Below, in pieces: positions 3,526-10,908 of a stretch of DNA of 21,467 bases (position 1 is its first letter; each line of letters begins with the position of its first letter). Both the position numbers and the translations under genes were made by a program. The notes beneath the pieces are model-generated. The model ran no database searches. It was not told the origin of the DNA and saw only the letters and a program-made list of their open reading frames with translations. The stretch is taken from positions 1-21,467 of the IMG/VR virus record IMGVR_UViG_2162886012_000048; one strand, written 5' to 3'. Source of the DNA: a virus.

Positions 3526-5694
3526 TTACGGGCTTGGCGAAAGAAGATCTTCCATGTTCAGTTGCGCCGCTTTCGTCCCGGCTGGCGTGAGCGCCTTGAG
3601 CGCAGGCGAAGTGGCGGCGTTCTGCCGGTCAAGCGCCTGGGCGAGTAGTTTCGCGAAATGATTCGGGTCGAGCATGGCCTCTTGAAATTCCCTGTTCACG
3701 CGGTTGCCGACGAAGGCGCCAAGCTTTTCAGCCGCCACCTTGCCGCCGTACGCGCCGACTGGACCTCCCGTCAGATAGCCGCCAGTCGCCCCGAGCGCCT
3801 TGGGAATGAACCCCTTCCCGTCCAGACCCTGACCAAACAACTTACCGGCGAGCCAGTTCGGCGCCTGCGCGTTGAAAAAAGTGTCGGAGCCAGGTTGGCG
3901 AATCGAGTTGCTGATTGCCTCGCGCTGCATGTCGCGCTGAATGGCTTCGAGTGACGCTTGCGCTTCCGGCTGGATACCGTACTTGGCATCCTTCAACGCC
4001 TTGGCCAGTTGCGTGCGGTACTGAGAAAGCATCGGCGCCACTTCATTCTCGACGTTGTGCCCGAGGCCAGAAACGCCGTTCAGGATGCTTTGCCCCGCCT
4101 CCATCGTGTTGACCGGTACGCTGCCTTGCGCCCATGCATCACGCGCTTGCTGGAAGGTTGGCGACTTGGCGTCAAGCTGGCTGACCAGCTGCCCGCGCAC
4201 GTCGCGGAGGGCGCCAGCCTCGTGCGATGCCACGCCGGCCATTGGCACGTCCCGCTGCATGGCGTCCATGGACATCTTGATCTGATTGGCGGCCTCACCG
4301 TTGATGCTGCCCGGCTTGCCGGGGATGACCGTGGTGAACATCGGCAGCCCGTCCGGGCCGAGAATAGCCGATGGAACACTTTGCTCTGGCACGGCCGCTT
4401 CCATGCCGAACGGCTGCTGCTTGTTCGCGGCCAGCGCACGGGCGCGCGCGATGGCGTCCTTGCCAATTGGCGTGTTGAGTAGGCCCGACAGCGAATCATC
4501 GAGCGGCATCACCTCTTTGCCGAAGGCGTCGTACAGCGGCTTGGACGCCTCGCCACGCGCTTTGATGGCAGCGGCCAGTGCCTCGGGCGTCTGCGCCACG
4601 CTGCGCAGCGCCTGCATGCGTGCCGCGTTGTTGCTGATGCCGCGCTCCACGAACCCCTCGGCAGATGCTGGGTTGCTGCGCAATACCTTCTCAGCCATGA
4701 CCAACTGCGGGATGCCAGCAACCTGCGCCGTGGTCGGGTTCGATCCCGGCACGAGCTGCCCGGCGGCGCGCAGGCGCTCAATCACCGCTTGCGGGTTGGC
4801 GTCTGCGCCCAGTAAGCCACCAAGGTCGCCCTCGGGCTGCCCAGGCGCCTGGGTGCGAACCCTCTTCAGGCCAGCAGCGAGCATGTCGCCCACTGTCGAG
4901 CCGGGCGACACCAGCGGGCGCACGGTATTCATGGCAGCCTTCCCGACTGCCCCAACTCCAGCGCCGACACGGTTCAACCCGCCGCCCAGCGCGGCGCCGA
5001 GCGCCATTTGTTTTGTCTTCTCGTTCCAGTACGAGGATGGGTCTTTCTCGGTCATCACCGATTCGAGCGTCGGCGCGCCGCCGTTGAATACCGGTTGGAT
5101 GGCGCCCAGGCCAGCGCCTTGTACTGCGGCGCCTCCTGTTGCCCGTAGGCCAGCGGCGAGTTTTTGCGTCCAGCCGATAGCTTCCGGCGCGCGCGCGGCC
5201 TCGCCACCCACCAGGAACGGCGCCACGCTGGCGGCGACGCGCCCAGTTCCGGCTGCCCACGATCCTCGCGTGCCTTGCTGATAATCGGCCTCCTGGGCTT
5301 TCAGGTGTTCGTTAAACTGCTGGGCCTTCTCGGAAATGAAGCGCGATCCGGCGCCCACCTTCCCGTTTTCCATCGGGAACTTCTTCAGCAGGGCGTCAGC
5401 ACTGTTCAAGACGAGCTGGCCGGCGCCCTGCACGCCGTCAGCAAGACCCTTTGCGCCGCCGTAGGCCAGATTGCCGAGACCGCCGAGAAAGGACGTTCCC
5501 TCTTCGGCCGGTGGCGCGGCAGCAACCTTCTGCGCGACTGGTGCGGCAGCCGGTGCTTTCGGACTGGCAGCCGGCGGTGCAGCCTTGAGCGCGCGGATAT
5601 GACTGGCCAGCGCCTTCGCGTCGTCCGTGTTGCCGGCGGCGTCAGCCTTGATCAGCGCCGCTTCGAGCGCGGCCAGTTTCTCGTCGGTAGCCAT
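3526..5694 (-). CDS. Large internal virion (DNA ejection-type) protein, 722 aa
   Basis: The N-terminal 37 residues form a helical hairpin (ALEAALIKADAAGNTDDAKA) that I recognise from the front of many phage internal proteins. An Ala/Pro linker follows (about 38-65), then Gly/Ala-rich amphipathic or hydrophobic stretches around 68-95, 150-200 and 230-255, and another near 645-670 (GATGGYLTGGPVGAYGGKVA). The centre (about 310-540) holds a conserved phage region with TTAQVAGIPQ, KPLYDAFGKEVMPLDD and ARDAWAQGSVPVNTMEAGQS. Size, glycine-rich membrane-seeking segments and place just before the tailspike suit a protein stored in the capsid and ejected ahead of DNA to form a channel, like the P22 gp7/gp16/gp20 set. 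No transglycosylase motif is evident. The start overlaps the previous stop (TAATG). The domain is familiar; the ejection role is inferred. Confidence 0.82.
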   Translation of the reverse strand: MATDEKLAALEAALIKADAAGNTDDAKALASHIRALKAAPPAASPKAPAAAPVAQKVAAAPPAEEGTSFLGGLGNLAYGGAKGLADGVQGAGQLVLNSADALLKKFPMENGKVGAGSRFISEKAQQFNEHLKAQEADYQQGTRGSWAAGTGRVAASVAPFLVGGEAARAPEAIGWTQKLAAGLRATGGAAVQGAGLGAIQPVFNGGAPTLESVMTEKDPSSYWNEKTKQMALGAALGGGLNRVGAGVGAVGKAAMNTVRPLVSPGSTVGDMLAAGLKRVRTQAPGQPEGDLGGLLGADANPQAVIERLRAAGQLVPGSNPTTAQVAGIPQLVMAEKVLRSNPASAEGFVERGISNNAARMQALRSVAQTPEALAAAIKARGEASKPLYDAFGKEVMPLDDSLSGLLNTPIGKDAIARARALAANKQQPFGMEAAVPEQSVPSAILGPDGLPMFTTVIPGKPGSINGEAANQIKMSMDAMQRDVPMAGVASHEAGALRDVRGQLVSQLDAKSPTFQQARDAWAQGSVPVNTMEAGQSILNGVSGLGHNVENEVAPMLSQYRTQLAKALKDAKYGIQPEAQASLEAIQRDMQREAISNSIRQPGSDTFFNAQAPNWLAGKLFGQGLDGKGFIPKALGATGGYLTGGPVGAYGGKVAAEKLGAFVGNRVNREFQEAMLDPNHFAKLLAQALDRQNAATSPALKALTPAGTKAAQLNMEDLLSPSP

Positions 5695-7298
5695 TATTTA
5701 TACTTCTCCAAAAGAGAGTCGACGGTCGGAGTCTGTGGGGCGCCCGTGTTTTTCTGCAGCGCCTGGTTGGCAATGCTGCCTCGATTTCCGGCAAGGTACT
5801 TATCGGTGAGCATGCGCAGGACCTGCTCGGCAGCCTTCCGGTCCCCGATTGGCACGGACGGGTCGCCAAGCTTGCCGGCCATTTCCTTGTAGAGCAAAAC
5901 GTCCTTGTCCGACTGTGGGCCGGACATTTTCGGCATCTTCGACACCAGAGCGCCGCCGATAGCCGCCAGCTTGGCCGCGCCCTTCGACGCATCCGTGCTG
6001 ATGCCAAGACCGCCGACCACCTTGTCGCGCATCACGCCGCCCATGCTGGAGGTCGGTACGCCGCTGGTAAGCAGTGGCAAGGCTGCATCGAGCAGGCCGA
6101 GCACGCCCTGGGCATCGACCAGCTTCTGCTGCTGCTCGGGCGACTGAGCGTTTTCAATGCGCGATTTCTCGATGGCCAGATTGTTGCGCACCTGACCGAC
6201 GCTCTGCTCGTCCTCCGCCGGCGTCGATCCTTGAATGCCGATGCCGCCTTGGCCGGGCGCCTGCACCTTGCCCAGCGCCTGCATCGCTTCGGCGCGCAGG
6301 ACTGGATCCGGGATTTTCGAAATCTGGTCGAAGGTGGCCTGCGGATCGCCCTTGAAATTGATGCTCAGGCCGCCGTCCGGGCTGTTGTAATGCGTGCCAC
6401 CCTGCGGGGCGCCACCGGACATCTGCACAGCCTGGGCCTTGGTCATCATGACCGGGCGCCCGCCGATGTTCACCGTGGTCATCTCGTTCTGTGCGTTCGC
6501 GCCAGAGGTCGCTGCGGCCACCGCGCCCGCGCGCTCTGCGGCGATCTGCGTCGAGCCGGGGATCGCGCCGGCCACCGGTGCGCCCTGGGCGTCGAAGCCG
6601 CCGGCGACGCCCGTCTCGAAGTTCGGCGCGACCACCCGCGAGCCGTCCGGCATGATGTTGGTCTGGCCCGGCTGCAGCGACATGGTGCCTTCCTTCTGAC
6701 GCTTGGCCAGCTCAGCCTCGCGCGCCTGCGCGGCGGTGATGCCAAGATAGCTATCGTTGCGCTGGCCATCGGTCATGAGGTTGGCGTTTTCCAGATACTT
6801 GTTGCTCAACTCCTTGTTGCCTGACAGGTAGGCCGCATAGGCCATATTGCGAAGCTTGTCGGCCTGGCTCGCCTGTTGCGGAGGGGGCGCGCTCGGCATT
6901 TCGCCTGCGCCAGGGTCGGCGGCGCCAGCTGGCAGCGTGGGCATGACGTTTGCGGCTTGCGGAGCCTGCGCTGCTTCAGTCCTACCGGACATCGCATTAA
7001 AGGCCTGCGTGGTGCGCTCCTGCATGGCCTTGGCCAGCGCTAGCTGTTTGTCATCGGCCTTGCGCTGCATGTAGTTTCCGGCCAGCGCCGATGCAATTTT
7101 TGAGACGCTTTCCCACGGGCTTTTCTTGACCGCCCAACCGTTGATGACCTGCGTGCCATTGTCCGGCGCCATAGCTTGCGACCGCAGCATTTCGGCCAAC
7201 TGCTGCTGACGCGATAGATTGGTCTGCTCGGCCCCGATATCCGGCGCAAGCAAGTTGTAGGCTGGCGCCTTGGCGCTGGTGAAGGGGTTACCGGCCAT
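5694..7298 (-). CDS. Internal virion / ejection-type structural protein, 534 aa
   Basis: The protein begins MAGNPFTSAKAPAYNLLAPD. An Arg/Gln-rich helix follows (NLSRQQQLAEMLRSQA, about 27-42), then GWAVKKSPWESVSKIASALAGNY, an arrangement I know from podovirus structural proteins placed next to the ejection proteins. The middle is low-complexity and rich in Ala, Gly, Gln and Pro (about 85-300). The C-terminal third is predicted helical, with a conserved-looking stretch SKMPKMSGPQSDKDVLLYKEM and a run ending SLLEKYK. I chose ATG 7298 rather than a codon six residues upstream because AGGAG lies at the right distance. This start is 11 bp inside the end of the diiron-protein gene; its stop forms TAATG with the 722-aa gene. 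No enzymatic motif is visible. Its role as a virion protein rests on context and remembered similarity. Confidence 0.8.
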   Translation of the reverse strand: MAGNPFTSAKAPAYNLLAPDIGAEQTNLSRQQQLAEMLRSQAMAPDNGTQVINGWAVKKSPWESVSKIASALAGNYMQRKADDKQLALAKAMQERTTQAFNAMSGRTEAAQAPQAANVMPTLPAGAADPGAGEMPSAPPPQQASQADKLRNMAYAAYLSGNKELSNKYLENANLMTDGQRNDSYLGITAAQAREAELAKRQKEGTMSLQPGQTNIMPDGSRVVAPNFETGVAGGFDAQGAPVAGAIPGSTQIAAERAGAVAAATSGANAQNEMTTVNIGGRPVMMTKAQAVQMSGGAPQGGTHYNSPDGGLSINFKGDPQATFDQISKIPDPVLRAEAMQALGKVQAPGQGGIGIQGSTPAEDEQSVGQVRNNLAIEKSRIENAQSPEQQQKLVDAQGVLGLLDAALPLLTSGVPTSSMGGVMRDKVVGGLGISTDASKGAAKLAAIGGALVSKMPKMSGPQSDKDVLLYKEMAGKLGDPSVPIGDRKAAEQVLRMLTDKYLAGNRGSIANQALQKNTGAPQTPTVDSLLEKYK

Positions 7299-7860
7299 GG
7301 TGTAGCTCCTGTACAAATTCGTTGATGTAGCGTGCCGTCTCGATGGCGCTTTGCAGAATCTCGGGGCAGTAATGCCGGTCGATCACCGCCAGCAGGTCGG
7401 CGCCGTGGTCCGGGTCGTGCTCAGCATGGAAGCGCACGGTGCGCAGCAGCTGCTTGCCATGCAGGCGCTCCAGTTCCTCGACCACTTCGAGCGGCATCGG
7501 AAAGCATTCGAGCACCAGCATGTAGCCCAGCAAGCAGGCGGGGGACACATGCTTGACCATGTAGTACATGCTGCCAGCCATCTGCACCGCTGTGCGGCTG
7601 AGCGGCAGGCTGCTCGCGCCGATATCTTCTGCCAGCCATTCGACGTGGCCGGTTTCCTCGGCCAGGTGCGAAACGAAGTAGTCGCGCAAGTCGCCAGTGG
7701 AAGCGGTGATTGCGTCGGCCAGCAAGCCCTCGCTCGCGGTGATGATCTGGTGGACGAACGACAGGTTTGCCAGGAATGTCGCGCGGTCGTGCAGATCCAC
7801 CTGCGGCGCCTGCGCGCGCAATGCCTGCACTGCCTCGATGATGTGGTCGGAGGGGCGCAT
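7288..7860 (-). CDS. Heme-oxygenase-like diiron protein (iron-containing redox enzyme family candidate)
   Basis: The 190-residue protein is predicted to be all-helical and has no signal or membrane segment. Its acidic and His residues fall in the order expected for the heme-oxygenase-like diiron oxidase (HDO) fold: Glu44, then Glu68/Glu69 and His72 (HLAEETGHVEW, residues 65-75), Glu118, and His145-x3-Asp149-x2-His152 (FHAEHDPDHGADLL). The last motif has the same spacing as the third metal-binding helix I recall for SznF and CADD; Glu69-x2-His72 resembles UndA. Length is slightly short for the family (about 200-260). Related folds include TenA and PqqC, which lack the metal set. It is joined by TAATG to the upstream structural gene and overlaps the downstream one by 11 bp, so it is part of the late operon and not a separate cargo unit. 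Substrate is unknown; N-oxygenation, desaturation or oxygen removal are all possible. The fold call is fairly firm, the activity is not. Confidence 0.72.
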   Translation of the reverse strand: MRPSDHIIEAVQALRAQAPQVDLHDRATFLANLSFVHQIITASEGLLADAITASTGDLRDYFVSHLAEETGHVEWLAEDIGASSLPLSRTAVQMAGSMYYMVKHVSPACLLGYMLVLECFPMPLEVVEELERLHGKQLLRTVRFHAEHDPDHGADLLAVIDRHYCPEILQSAIETARYINEFVQELHHGR

Positions 7861-8720
7861 TATAAAAACATCATCGCTGCGGTTGTGGCCATGCTGCCAA
7901 GAGCGCTGTTCGTGCTATTCGTCTGCGCCACCTTGGAGCCGTACAGGCCCTGCGCGTAGTTGCCCGCCTGCCCGGTCGCGCCCAGCATGTCGGCGCCCAT
8001 CGTCGTTTGCTGCTGGGGCGCCTGCTGGAACGTCGGGTTCGTCACCTGCGCGCCGGTGCGGATCGCGTTCAGCTCGTTCATGGGCATATTGCGGTTGCCG
8101 ACTTCCTGCGCGTACTGCTGGCCCTGCTGCTGCTGGCCGAGGTTGATCGCCTGCAGTTGCGCCTGCTGCTTGGCGTCGTTGTGCTCGCGACCCATCTGGT
8201 CCTGCGCGTTCTTGTACGCCTCGGAGCCGGGCATGATGCCCTGGTTTGCCAGTTGCGCGTCCATGGCGGCCTGGTCGCGCTGCTGCTGCGGCAGAAGGCG
8301 CGCGTTGATCAGGTCAGCGGCGTTGTTGGTCGACTTGGTCGGATCGTAGGCGCTTGGCATCGGCGCGCCCATCATCCCGCCCACGCGCGCGGTGGCTGCG
8401 TCCTGCAGGTTGCCCAGCCCCATGCTGGTTTTGTTCTGCTGGTCGAGTAGCGACTGGCCGGAGCCGGACAGAGAAACGGTGCTGCTCCACTTGTCCGGGT
8501 CGTTCGGATCTTGCGTATATTTCAGGTCGCCATACGGGGTGTACGTGTCGACGCGGTTCGCCTTGGTCGCGAACTTTGCCGCCTCCAGATTGCCGGCGGC
8601 AGTCGCACTGGCCGCGCCCGTGTAATCCGGAGGCGGCGGCGCCGATGGCGAGCTTTTGAAGCAAATCCAGCCGCGCCCGAGTTTGCGTTGTGGCGCCCAG
8701 TAGATGTATTCGTGATCCAT
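7860..8720 (-). CDS. Gln-rich virion structural protein, 286 aa
   Basis: After a short N-terminus (MDHEYIYWAPQRKLGRGW) comes CFKSSPSAPPPPDYTGAAS at about residues 20-38 and then a segment with AAKFATKANRVDTYTPYGDL. I recognise this Pro-rich-to-DYTGAA-to-TPYG layout from phage structural proteins near the ejection genes. The second half contains LLPQQQRDQAAMDAQLANQG and MPGSEAYKNAQDQM followed by a strongly Gln-rich helix (about 185-215), then NPTFQQAPQQQ and a small hydrophobic C-terminus (ALGSMATTAAMMFL). It is probably a helical internal virion protein. ATG 8720 is preceded by GGAGAAG and forms TAATG with the acetyltransferase stop; a start eight codons upstream would overlap that gene. I cannot assign an enzymatic function. 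Confidence 0.8.
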   Translation of the reverse strand: MDHEYIYWAPQRKLGRGWICFKSSPSAPPPPDYTGAASATAAGNLEAAKFATKANRVDTYTPYGDLKYTQDPNDPDKWSSTVSLSGSGQSLLDQQNKTSMGLGNLQDAATARVGGMMGAPMPSAYDPTKSTNNAADLINARLLPQQQRDQAAMDAQLANQGIMPGSEAYKNAQDQMGREHNDAKQQAQLQAINLGQQQQGQQYAQEVGNRNMPMNELNAIRTGAQVTNPTFQQAPQQQTTMGADMLGATGQAGNYAQGLYGSKVAQTNSTNSALGSMATTAAMMFL

Positions 8721-9118
8721 TATTTCTTCTCCAACCATTTGCATTCATTGCGCCACAGGCGATAGATGATCAAGTCGCCGCCAGGGTGCGCGCCGGCCAG
8801 CCGCGCCTCTTCATGAAAGCCGAAGTGCTGGCAAAGCTTGCGCGATTTCGTGTTGTCCTCGCCAATCAGGCAGGTCACGCGGTCGACCTTGGCCTTATTA
8901 AACGGGTAGTCGAAAATGATCTTGACAAAGGCGCGCGTCAGCGGGCGATCAACGGCGATATGTGCATTGATGTTTGGCCCGTTGAACTCGTTGTACGCCA
9001 CGCCGGCCACGATCTCGCCGTCATGCAACCAGCCGATACCAACCGCGCAGCCGAAGTTTCCGAAGTCATTGGTCTTCTTCGCCACCCATTCAACGACGCC
9101 AGGCCCAATGGTAATCAC
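8720..9118 (-). CDS. GNAT-family N-acetyltransferase, 132 aa
   Basis: The small protein shows the GNAT pattern. A strand pair comes first (FGCAVGIGWLHDGEIVAGVA, residues about 23-42), then a central strand and helix (HIAVDRPLTRAFVKIIFDYPF) and the acetyl-CoA-side motif CLIGEDNTKSRKLCQHFGF at about 84-102, where Asn-x-x-Ser followed by a helix and GF is typical. Similar short GNAT proteins occur in the tail regions of several podoviruses; their target is not settled. Translation starts at GTG 9118, not ATG, and GTGA overlaps the stop of the nozzle-like gene by 4 bp, so translation is likely coupled. Acetylation of a host or virion protein during late infection is inference. Confidence 0.86.
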   Translation of the reverse strand: MITIGPGVVEWVAKKTNDFGNFGCAVGIGWLHDGEIVAGVAYNEFNGPNINAHIAVDRPLTRAFVKIIFDYPFNKAKVDRVTCLIGEDNTKSRKLCQHFGFHEEARLAGAHPGGDLIIYRLWRNECKWLEKK

Positions 9119-10908
9119 AGGACCCCCCCATCATCGACAAGGAAGTCGGTTGACGCCCAGCGCAGGCGCGTATTCTTTGCATACCCCTTCATGTGCCCGG
9201 CGATGCTGTAGCCGATTCCAAACGCCGTCTGCCAATCCCGCTTGGTCGCCAGGTCGCCGGCCCAGGTGCTGCCGTCATCCCACAAGGATGCGTCCCACAC
9301 TGCCGGCGTCATGCTGAATGGCGAGAAGGTGGGCAGGCCCTGCGGGTCGCTCGTGTCGAAATCCACGTTGACCCCAAACAGAATGGTTGGGTATCCGTCC
9401 GTGGAGATCACAGGCCGGACCATGTTGACCTTCTTGAGCTGCGATCCGCTGCCGAAGTAGCTGAACGACTGCTGCGCGTTGAAATTGATGTTCGTGCCGG
9501 CATCGGCGTACGTGTCCCATGCCTTGCATACGGCGCCAGCGGTGCCGAAGTACAGGTTGTCGCCGTGCAGCTCCCAGCACGCAGCATCCCAGCCAGTGAA
9601 CAATGACCAGGCGCCGCTGATCGTGTTCATGACGACTTGCCGGGACGCCGTTGGCGAAATGGGGATATTCATCAGCAGCATGTTCGCCTTCGGGAACAGC
9701 GCGGTTTCCCACCCGAAGTTGGCAGAATAGGTGCCGATGTAGTCACCGATGACATGCTGAATCTTGTCGGTCAGCATGGACTGCGAATTCACGCGCGACG
9801 ACATGAGTGCTTTCGACATTGGCGCAAGCCCGTCCTGACAGATAATCGTCAGGTCGCCCGCATATTTCATCATGCAGCGCCGGCCGATAGGCGAACCAAC
9901 ATCATAAATACCGATCAGCGCCCAGGTGGCCGCGCTGGCGGGGTCAGTGCCTTTATAGACGGCAACTTGCCCTTCCGACGAGACGAAAACAGCGTAATCG
10001 TCCATGCCGTAGCCGGCATCGAGTGACCAGGTGCCCATGGCCATCAGGTAGCCGCCGCGCGTGAAAAGGCTGCCAAAGTCCAGTTGCGCAGCGGCGCCGC
10101 CGATTGAGAGCGTCGGGAGATACCAGGCGCGCATGCTGCTTTTTTCAATGAAGAAGAGACGACTTTTAAAAGCGCTTACCGAAATAAGGGAGGTCGATGC
10201 CACGCCGGTGATGGCAAAATTTACACCCGGCGTTGCGATCCCGGTCACGGTGGTGACGCCCAGCGGCGCGGCCAGCACGTAGGTAAATGTCGAGGTGCTG
10301 GTTACCGTTATCGTGTAGGTCCCGTTGTACCCGGCTGGCGTGAAGCCGCTGACCACAATCTGCATGCCGGTCTTCAGGTTGTGCGGATTCGCCATCGTGA
10401 CTGTCGCGAGCGTGCCAGCGCTGGTGATGCTGGTAACGGAAGTATTGAAAGCCGCGCTAAAAACGCCGCCCCAGCCCGTCCCGTTGTAGACGAGCACCGG
10501 ATCGAACCCGTTCGCCATCACAAGGAATGTTCCTGCGGATGTGCCGAAGATGGCGTGCTGCCACTTATCCGAGAGGTTGCCAGTTACAACGGCGCCCCCT
10601 GATGCTCCAGATGCACTCGCGTCATAGATGCTCGCACCGGCTGCTGCGAACAACTTGATGCTGCCCACGGGCGGCGAGTATGAGCACAGCGTGTTGACCG
10701 TGCCGGTTATTCCAGTTGAGTAGTTGCTGTATCCATAGCGAAGCATCACATCAAACGGGGTGCAGAAAAAGTTTTCCAGCGCGACCGCGTCGGTCTTCTT
10801 CATTTCGGCCAAGGGGTCGCGCGCGTTCCAGCCGCCGACAGGTGCAGACACGGACAACGTGCGCGATACCTGGGTGCGTGTGACGCGGCGCTGCGGAGTA
10901 CGCATCAT
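9115..10908 (-). CDS. Putative tail nozzle / tail-hub protein, 597 aa
   Basis: The protein opens with an Arg/Thr-rich tail and then APVGGWNARDPLAEMKKTDA (about 22-41), a signature I associate with podovirus tail tube/nozzle proteins of roughly this size. Short beta-rich segments continue through the protein, including repeated W/Y-containing strands and SISPTASRQVVMN-like stretches near the middle, which fits a beta-propeller-like hub. Residues about 158-212 look like an inserted module (VTMANPHNLKTGMQIVVSGF then NGTYTITVTSTSTFTYVL) found in many unrelated phage and bacterial surface proteins. It directly follows the adaptor gene with a 4-bp ATGA overlap, the same order as P22 gp4-gp10. The role is inferred from order and shape, not from a diagnostic motif. 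Confidence 0.75.
   Translation of the reverse strand: MMRTPQRRVTRTQVSRTLSVSAPVGGWNARDPLAEMKKTDAVALENFFCTPFDVMLRYGYSNYSTGITGTVNTLCSYSPPVGSIKLFAAAGASIYDASASGASGGAVVTGNLSDKWQHAIFGTSAGTFLVMANGFDPVLVYNGTGWGGVFSAAFNTSVTSITSAGTLATVTMANPHNLKTGMQIVVSGFTPAGYNGTYTITVTSTSTFTYVLAAPLGVTTVTGIATPGVNFAITGVASTSLISVSAFKSRLFFIEKSSMRAWYLPTLSIGGAAAQLDFGSLFTRGGYLMAMGTWSLDAGYGMDDYAVFVSSEGQVAVYKGTDPASAATWALIGIYDVGSPIGRRCMMKYAGDLTIICQDGLAPMSKALMSSRVNSQSMLTDKIQHVIGDYIGTYSANFGWETALFPKANMLLMNIPISPTASRQVVMNTISGAWSLFTGWDAACWELHGDNLYFGTAGAVCKAWDTYADAGTNINFNAQQSFSYFGSGSQLKKVNMVRPVISTDGYPTILFGVNVDFDTSDPQGLPTFSPFSMTPAVWDASLWDDGSTWAGDLATKRDWQTAFGIGYSIAGHMKGYAKNTRLRWASTDFLVDDGGVL

Follow-up and report, generated by a model that had tools for sequence, protein, structure and literature searches.

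The haem-oxygenase-like dimetal oxidases (HDOs) form a family of over ten thousand members, about a dozen of which have been characterised, and have as their common ligand set three histidines and three carboxylates located on core helices (PMC13108848). One member, CADD/PabS, is a self-sacrificing pABA synthase, which needs sacrificial Lys (and Tyr) side chains (PMC13108848). Peptides have also entered the picture, MboA being a published HDO that acts on a peptide (PMC13185094), while a RiPP is the proposed target of VarO (thiovarsolin; PMC6511847). A literature search found no paper on HDOs of phages. In T7, the parts of a review drawn on here (PMC8954989) have gp14 form a pore in the outer membrane, and describe no oxidase gene in the ejection operon (gp14, gp15, gp16). 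In the following, a podoviral HDO gene is described that lies between two such ejection genes, along with the C-terminal residue of the protein encoded next to it. The window, i.e. the whole stretch of DNA analysed, is an IMG/VR virus record of 21,467 bases.

The gene, its neighbours and the predicted enzyme

The late genes of the window (table 1) follow the order portal, scaffold-like, major capsid, adaptor (SU10_adaptor), nozzle-position protein, GNAT, gp6121, HDO, gp33352, gp5880, spike and lysis, several of these names being positional. From the adaptor on, this order corresponds to T7 gp11-12-13-14-15-16-17, so that gp6121, gp33352 and gp5880 take the places of gp14, gp15 and gp16; the gp14-, gp15- and gp16-like assignments are based on gene order, PHROGs labels and established knowledge of T7. 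The labels found upstream of HDO are 'virion structural protein' and 'DNA ejection protein' (the latter in the distant relatives L146 and L149), and internal virion or transglycosylase proteins are found downstream, in agreement with the ejection block of which an earlier note, made from the sequence of the window, had spoken. The ORF coordinates also bear out the position that it gave for the gene and both junctions, namely the TAATG in which the HDO ATG has one base in common with the stop codon of the preceding gp14-like gene, and the 11-bp overlap between the HDO stop and the next ATG (7298).

Table 1. Features of the window and of the compact bacterial cassettes (L numbers denote other loci).
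Feature	Position	Strand	Remarks
HDO gene	7288..7860	-	190 aa; predicted 3H/3C ligands E69, H72, E118, H145, D149, H152
gp14-like ejection protein gene (phrog_6121)	7860..8744	-	proposed substrate; C-terminus ...TTAAMMFL; stop overlaps HDO start (TAATG)
gp15-like protein gene (phrog_33352)	5694..7298	-	ATG overlaps HDO stop by 11 bp
gp16-like large protein gene (phrog_5880)	3526..5694	-	assigned from gene order
GNAT-like acyltransferase gene (phrog_4470)	8720..9118	-	also in phages without HDO
gp12/nozzle-position protein gene (phrog_5107)	9115..10908	-	basis of the phage tree
Compact peptide-HDO-radical SAM cassette	L257:4711-6985	-	Burkholderiales
Compact peptide-HDO-radical SAM cassette	L258:5159-7443	+	Burkholderiales
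Compact peptide-HDO-radical SAM cassette	L259:4885-7223	-	Burkholderiales
Compact peptide-HDO-radical SAM cassette	L157:3568-6213	+	Caulobacteraceae MAG

Neither a sigma-70 promoter-like site, which could have served HDO alone, nor a minus-strand terminator-like site was found in 6900-9300; with these signals lacking there and the genes overlapping, the gene does not have the make-up of a phage moron, which brings its own promoter and terminator. A functional link with the GNAT gene was likewise dropped, since GNAT occurs in phages without HDO as well.

That the gene encodes an HDO is well supported. The product matches Pfam PF14518 (Haem_oxygenas_2) at E 7e-8, its 32.9 bits exceeding the cut-off of 28.9; comparison with NCBIfam and PHROGs profiles gave no family for it, and among solved structures a search with the single sequence returned chance matches only, the profile search having 3dde at 1e-4 as its sole match. 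The AlphaFold (AF2) model built from five phage homologues (pLDDT 92, pTM 0.88) has a haem-oxygenase-like bundle, for which Foldseek listed among solved structures TenA, CtCADD (TM 0.77, rmsd 3.4), UndA, PolF and BesC. When 63 phage sequences are aligned with 29 cellular ones and the mis-framed L195 is left out, all 91 usable rows have the six ligands unchanged. Profile, fold and ligand conservation among homologues thus all speak for the HDO reading of the earlier note; two outcomes that it had named as refuting, a different fold and ligands that vary among homologues, did not arise. Its list of ligands stands except for one: every residue that it named is present, but Glu44, which it had included, is Glu in 47/63 phage rows and in 3/29 cellular ones. 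A residue that varies in this way is not an obligatory ligand, and the protein is probably of the 3H/3C type rather than SznF-like 3H/4C, the extra conserved Glu of the SznF type not being found with Glu44 as the only candidate examined.

The alignment of relatives contains no conserved Cys column and no invariant Lys, the best Lys column reaching 15/25. TenA thiaminase uses a catalytic Cys; thus neither the TenA nucleophile nor the sacrificial Lys of CADD is present, and the roles of thiaminase and of CADD/PabS-type pABA synthase were rejected.

Distribution among phages

Scans of IMG/VR retrieved 24, then 59 loci in viral contigs that encode relatives of the protein, far more than chance would give, whereas tblastn of INPHARED phages with three phage HDOs gave no match. 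Altogether, the gene is present in about 60 related phages, and its copies there make up a single clade; in a tree with a limited cellular sample, the phage proteins all fall on one side of a branch with an SH-aLRT of 99. Among 399 Burkholderiales genomes searched, the one strong match is a Herminiimonas contig, in which the HDO gene is part of the same phage module; a prophage-like region of Herminiimonas contaminans Marseille-Q4544 (L155) is among the loci. Most contigs are metagenomic, and position was the basis for the gene starts and for part of the gp14 assignments.

In nearly all phages the HDO gene directly follows the gp14-like gene and precedes the gp15-like gene, and this slot is kept even among phages whose ejection proteins barely align. 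In L204, an 85-aa gene intervenes between the gp14-like gene and HDO; in L186, L214 and L236, HDO lies outside the usual slot. At L261:4262-7274, HDO is found between the genes for the terminase large subunit and a minor head protein, away from the ejection block. About 20 related phages have no HDO. On the tree of the nozzle protein, the presence label needs seven changes, and the gene has been gained or lost several times in these phages. A close relative without HDO has a PP-loop/PAPS-reductase-like gene between its gp14- and gp15-like genes (L088:15799-16473), so that the slot accommodates different enzymes.

Aromatic C-termini in bacterial cassettes and in the gp14-like protein

The nearest cellular HDOs found sit in RiPP-type settings. 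Three Burkholderiales loci and a Caulobacteraceae MAG (table 1) combine a small peptide, HDO and a radical SAM gene, with one or two peptides of about 100-145 aa that end in Phe, mostly as G-x-x-F; this cassette looks RiPP-type and could not be matched to a described system, and a literature search for 'aroma-sacti' found no paper. In Streptomyces, a class III LanKC (865 bits against a cut-off of 575) is encoded near HDO, and a conserved peptide of 73-82 aa overlaps the HDO end. These clusters (L162:2142-8833 and L159-L166) comprise LanKC, an MFS transporter, a 51-aa LDLQ-type lanthipeptide precursor and HDO, the second conserved peptide ending in ...EIAGGALF. A Janthinobacterium lividum MAG has three HDO loci (L156, L158, L177), each with a small NHLP-like peptide whose NHLP-clan matches are below threshold; two of the three also encode a TIGR03975 RiPP C-methyltransferase (B12 radical SAM; 524 and 500 bits, cut-off 282). 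The peptides of this MAG end in ..FIL, ..GII and ..LLY, i.e. not all in an aromatic residue. HDO relatives are also found on Sinorhizobium plasmids. Across the Streptomyces and the Burkholderiales/Caulobacteraceae cassettes, Phe is the last residue of 13 of 13 peptides (...GGALF, GGCIF, GTYVF, GGGIF, GSGCF, GSCFF), although eight of them are near-kin from Streptomyces.

An adjacent ribosomal polypeptide with a hydrophobic or aromatic end is found in these cassettes and in the phages, in which the gp14-like proteins encoded next to HDO have a Met/Ala-rich hydrophobic tail with Phe or Tyr as terminal residue. In the first set, this end was found in 20/22 gp14-like proteins of phages with HDO and in 3/22 of those without, the latter being a small set, partly of one lineage. 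As the test came after the pattern had been seen in the data, only the held-out loci, which were fetched afterwards and placed on the tree, provide a clean test; in these, F/Y is the end in 28/29, or in 23/24 with identical tails merged. The overall figures are 48/51 with HDO against 3/22 without (Fisher 1e-11, kinship ignored), and 41/44 against 3/16 for distinct tails only (Fisher 5e-8, kinship ignored). On the nozzle-protein tree, six independent supported pairs gave on average 4.1 concordant and 0 discordant contrasts, too few pairs for significance (sign test p 0.06-0.5). The pairing of HDO presence with the F/Y end of the gp14-like protein is new here.

The exceptions, the window itself (...MMFL), L198 (...AFL) and L154 (...AAL), end in Leu. 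The nearest kin of the window, L088 and L085, are without HDO and have a different gp14-like tail. In the model of the window's gp14-like protein, a poor one from a shallow alignment, the last ~95 residues have pLDDT <50, which is consistent with a tail that is accessible and apparently unstructured. Several gp14-like proteins of phages without HDO (L003, L005, L050, L085, L114, L117) have, in place of the hydrophobic tail, a C-terminal S74-like (SDIRLKKNI...) chaperone-type domain, named by eye.

Possible roles of the phage oxidase

The HDO/Phe-Tyr pairing and the Phe-ending cellular peptides suggest a chemical modification, by the phage, at the tip of one of its virion proteins. Of the roles considered, HDO would most likely oxidise the C-terminal residue of the neighbouring gp14-like ejection protein, with a probability that we put at about 0.45. 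Slightly more tentative is the proposition that podoviruses use a RiPP-type diiron oxidase for the post-translational modification of the C-terminal residue of a virion ejection (pore) protein. The substrate, the chemistry and the benefit are those that we infer as follows. The enzyme, a predicted dimetal 3H/3C oxidase of a phage-specific clade related to the HDOs of RiPP-type cassettes, would be made late, translationally coupled to the gp14-like protein, and would target the terminal residue (usually Phe or Tyr and in some cases Leu) of an apparently unstructured hydrophobic tail. UndA binds the carboxylate of its substrate to Fe1 (PMC13108848); by analogy, the free C-terminal carboxylate of the gp14-like protein would coordinate one iron, O2 would give a peroxo-diiron species, and decarboxylation, desaturation or some other reaction would cap the terminal residue, after which the protein would be packaged and later ejected. 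As a guess, the capped tail could withstand tail-specific proteases (those that recognise nonpolar C-termini) or aid membrane insertion.

Several observations count against C-terminal modification, such as the Leu ends of the window, L198 and L154, the HDOs of L186, L214 and L236 outside the usual slot, the partly non-aromatic ends in Janthinobacterium, the small number of independent contrasts (six pairs) and the gp14-like protein itself, which with ~290 aa and a low-confidence model bears very little resemblance to a small RiPP precursor. The chief rival, possible although rather doubtful, is an auxiliary metabolic enzyme that acts late in infection on a free small molecule (an amino acid, a fatty acid or a cofactor precursor), the aromatic end of its neighbour being co-inherited and not a substrate. 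Indeed, free amino acids or fatty acids are the substrates of most characterised HDOs (PMC13108848), and the slot is variable cargo space, given the PP-loop gene that occupies it in L088; the HDO label also changes ~7 times on the phage tree. However, the terminal aromatic residue is retained while the remaining tail diverges, the independent contrasts never set it against HDO presence, the cellular kin are likewise paired with Phe-ending peptides, and the gene is without a promoter of its own in the interval scanned. Next comes an unlikely role in which the protein, as a chaperone or as part of the virion, would bind the hydrophobic gp14-like tail, with the metal site structural or a relic; it would agree with the location between two ejection genes with overlapping ends and with the tail type going with HDO presence, but six ligands invariant at ~40% overall identity are not expected of a purely structural bundle.

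The F/Y end might also be due to translational coupling through a nucleotide signal (TTCTGATG, TACTGATG) instead of protein chemistry, most junctions being ATGTTCTGATG or similar. This account is judged weak and most improbable, as F/Y is kept where stop and start do not overlap (L135, L142, L146) and despite the intervening gene of L204, several phages without HDO have other ends even though their gp14-like stop overlaps the next start or directly adjoins it, and F/Y ends were found in no other gene type of the HDO-carrying loci. Equally little is to be expected of a sink for oxygen or iron, or of a TenA-like or pABA-synthase-like activity, for which the fold matches to TenA and CtCADD would speak and against which the lack of a conserved Cys and of an invariant Lys weighs. 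The functions envisaged in the earlier note (oxidation of a small molecule, a sink for oxygen or iron, reuse as a structural protein) fit less well than C-terminal modification of the ejection protein, which it had not proposed; its suggestion that the enzyme might modify an amino acid comes closest.

If C-terminal modification is true, phages mature an injection protein by a type of oxidation that is otherwise known from the biosynthesis of natural products, so that ejection would depend on an O2-using step; this would be a new kind of virion protein modification as well as a new use of HDOs, for which protein C-termini ending in Phe or Tyr would be named as a substrate class.

Compared with the T7-type ejection operon, the window keeps the same gene positions and has an extra oxidase gene between its gp14- and gp15-like genes. 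The RiPP-cassette HDOs (VarO, and the kin by radical SAM or LanKC) include the nearest cellular relatives found here, and in the radical SAM and LanKC cassettes the product of the adjacent gene ends in Phe, in the phages mostly in Phe or Tyr; the phage partner, however, is a large ejection protein and not a small precursor, and no second maturase is seen in the phage operon. With the HDO superfamily as a whole (UndA, CADD, BesC, SznF, AetD, PolF, MboA), the phage protein has in common PF14518, the haem-oxygenase-like helical bundle and the ligand order E-x2-H, E, H-x3-D-x2-H; yet the phage proteins, of ~190 aa, form a separate clade, and their gene belongs to a virion operon instead of a biosynthetic cluster.
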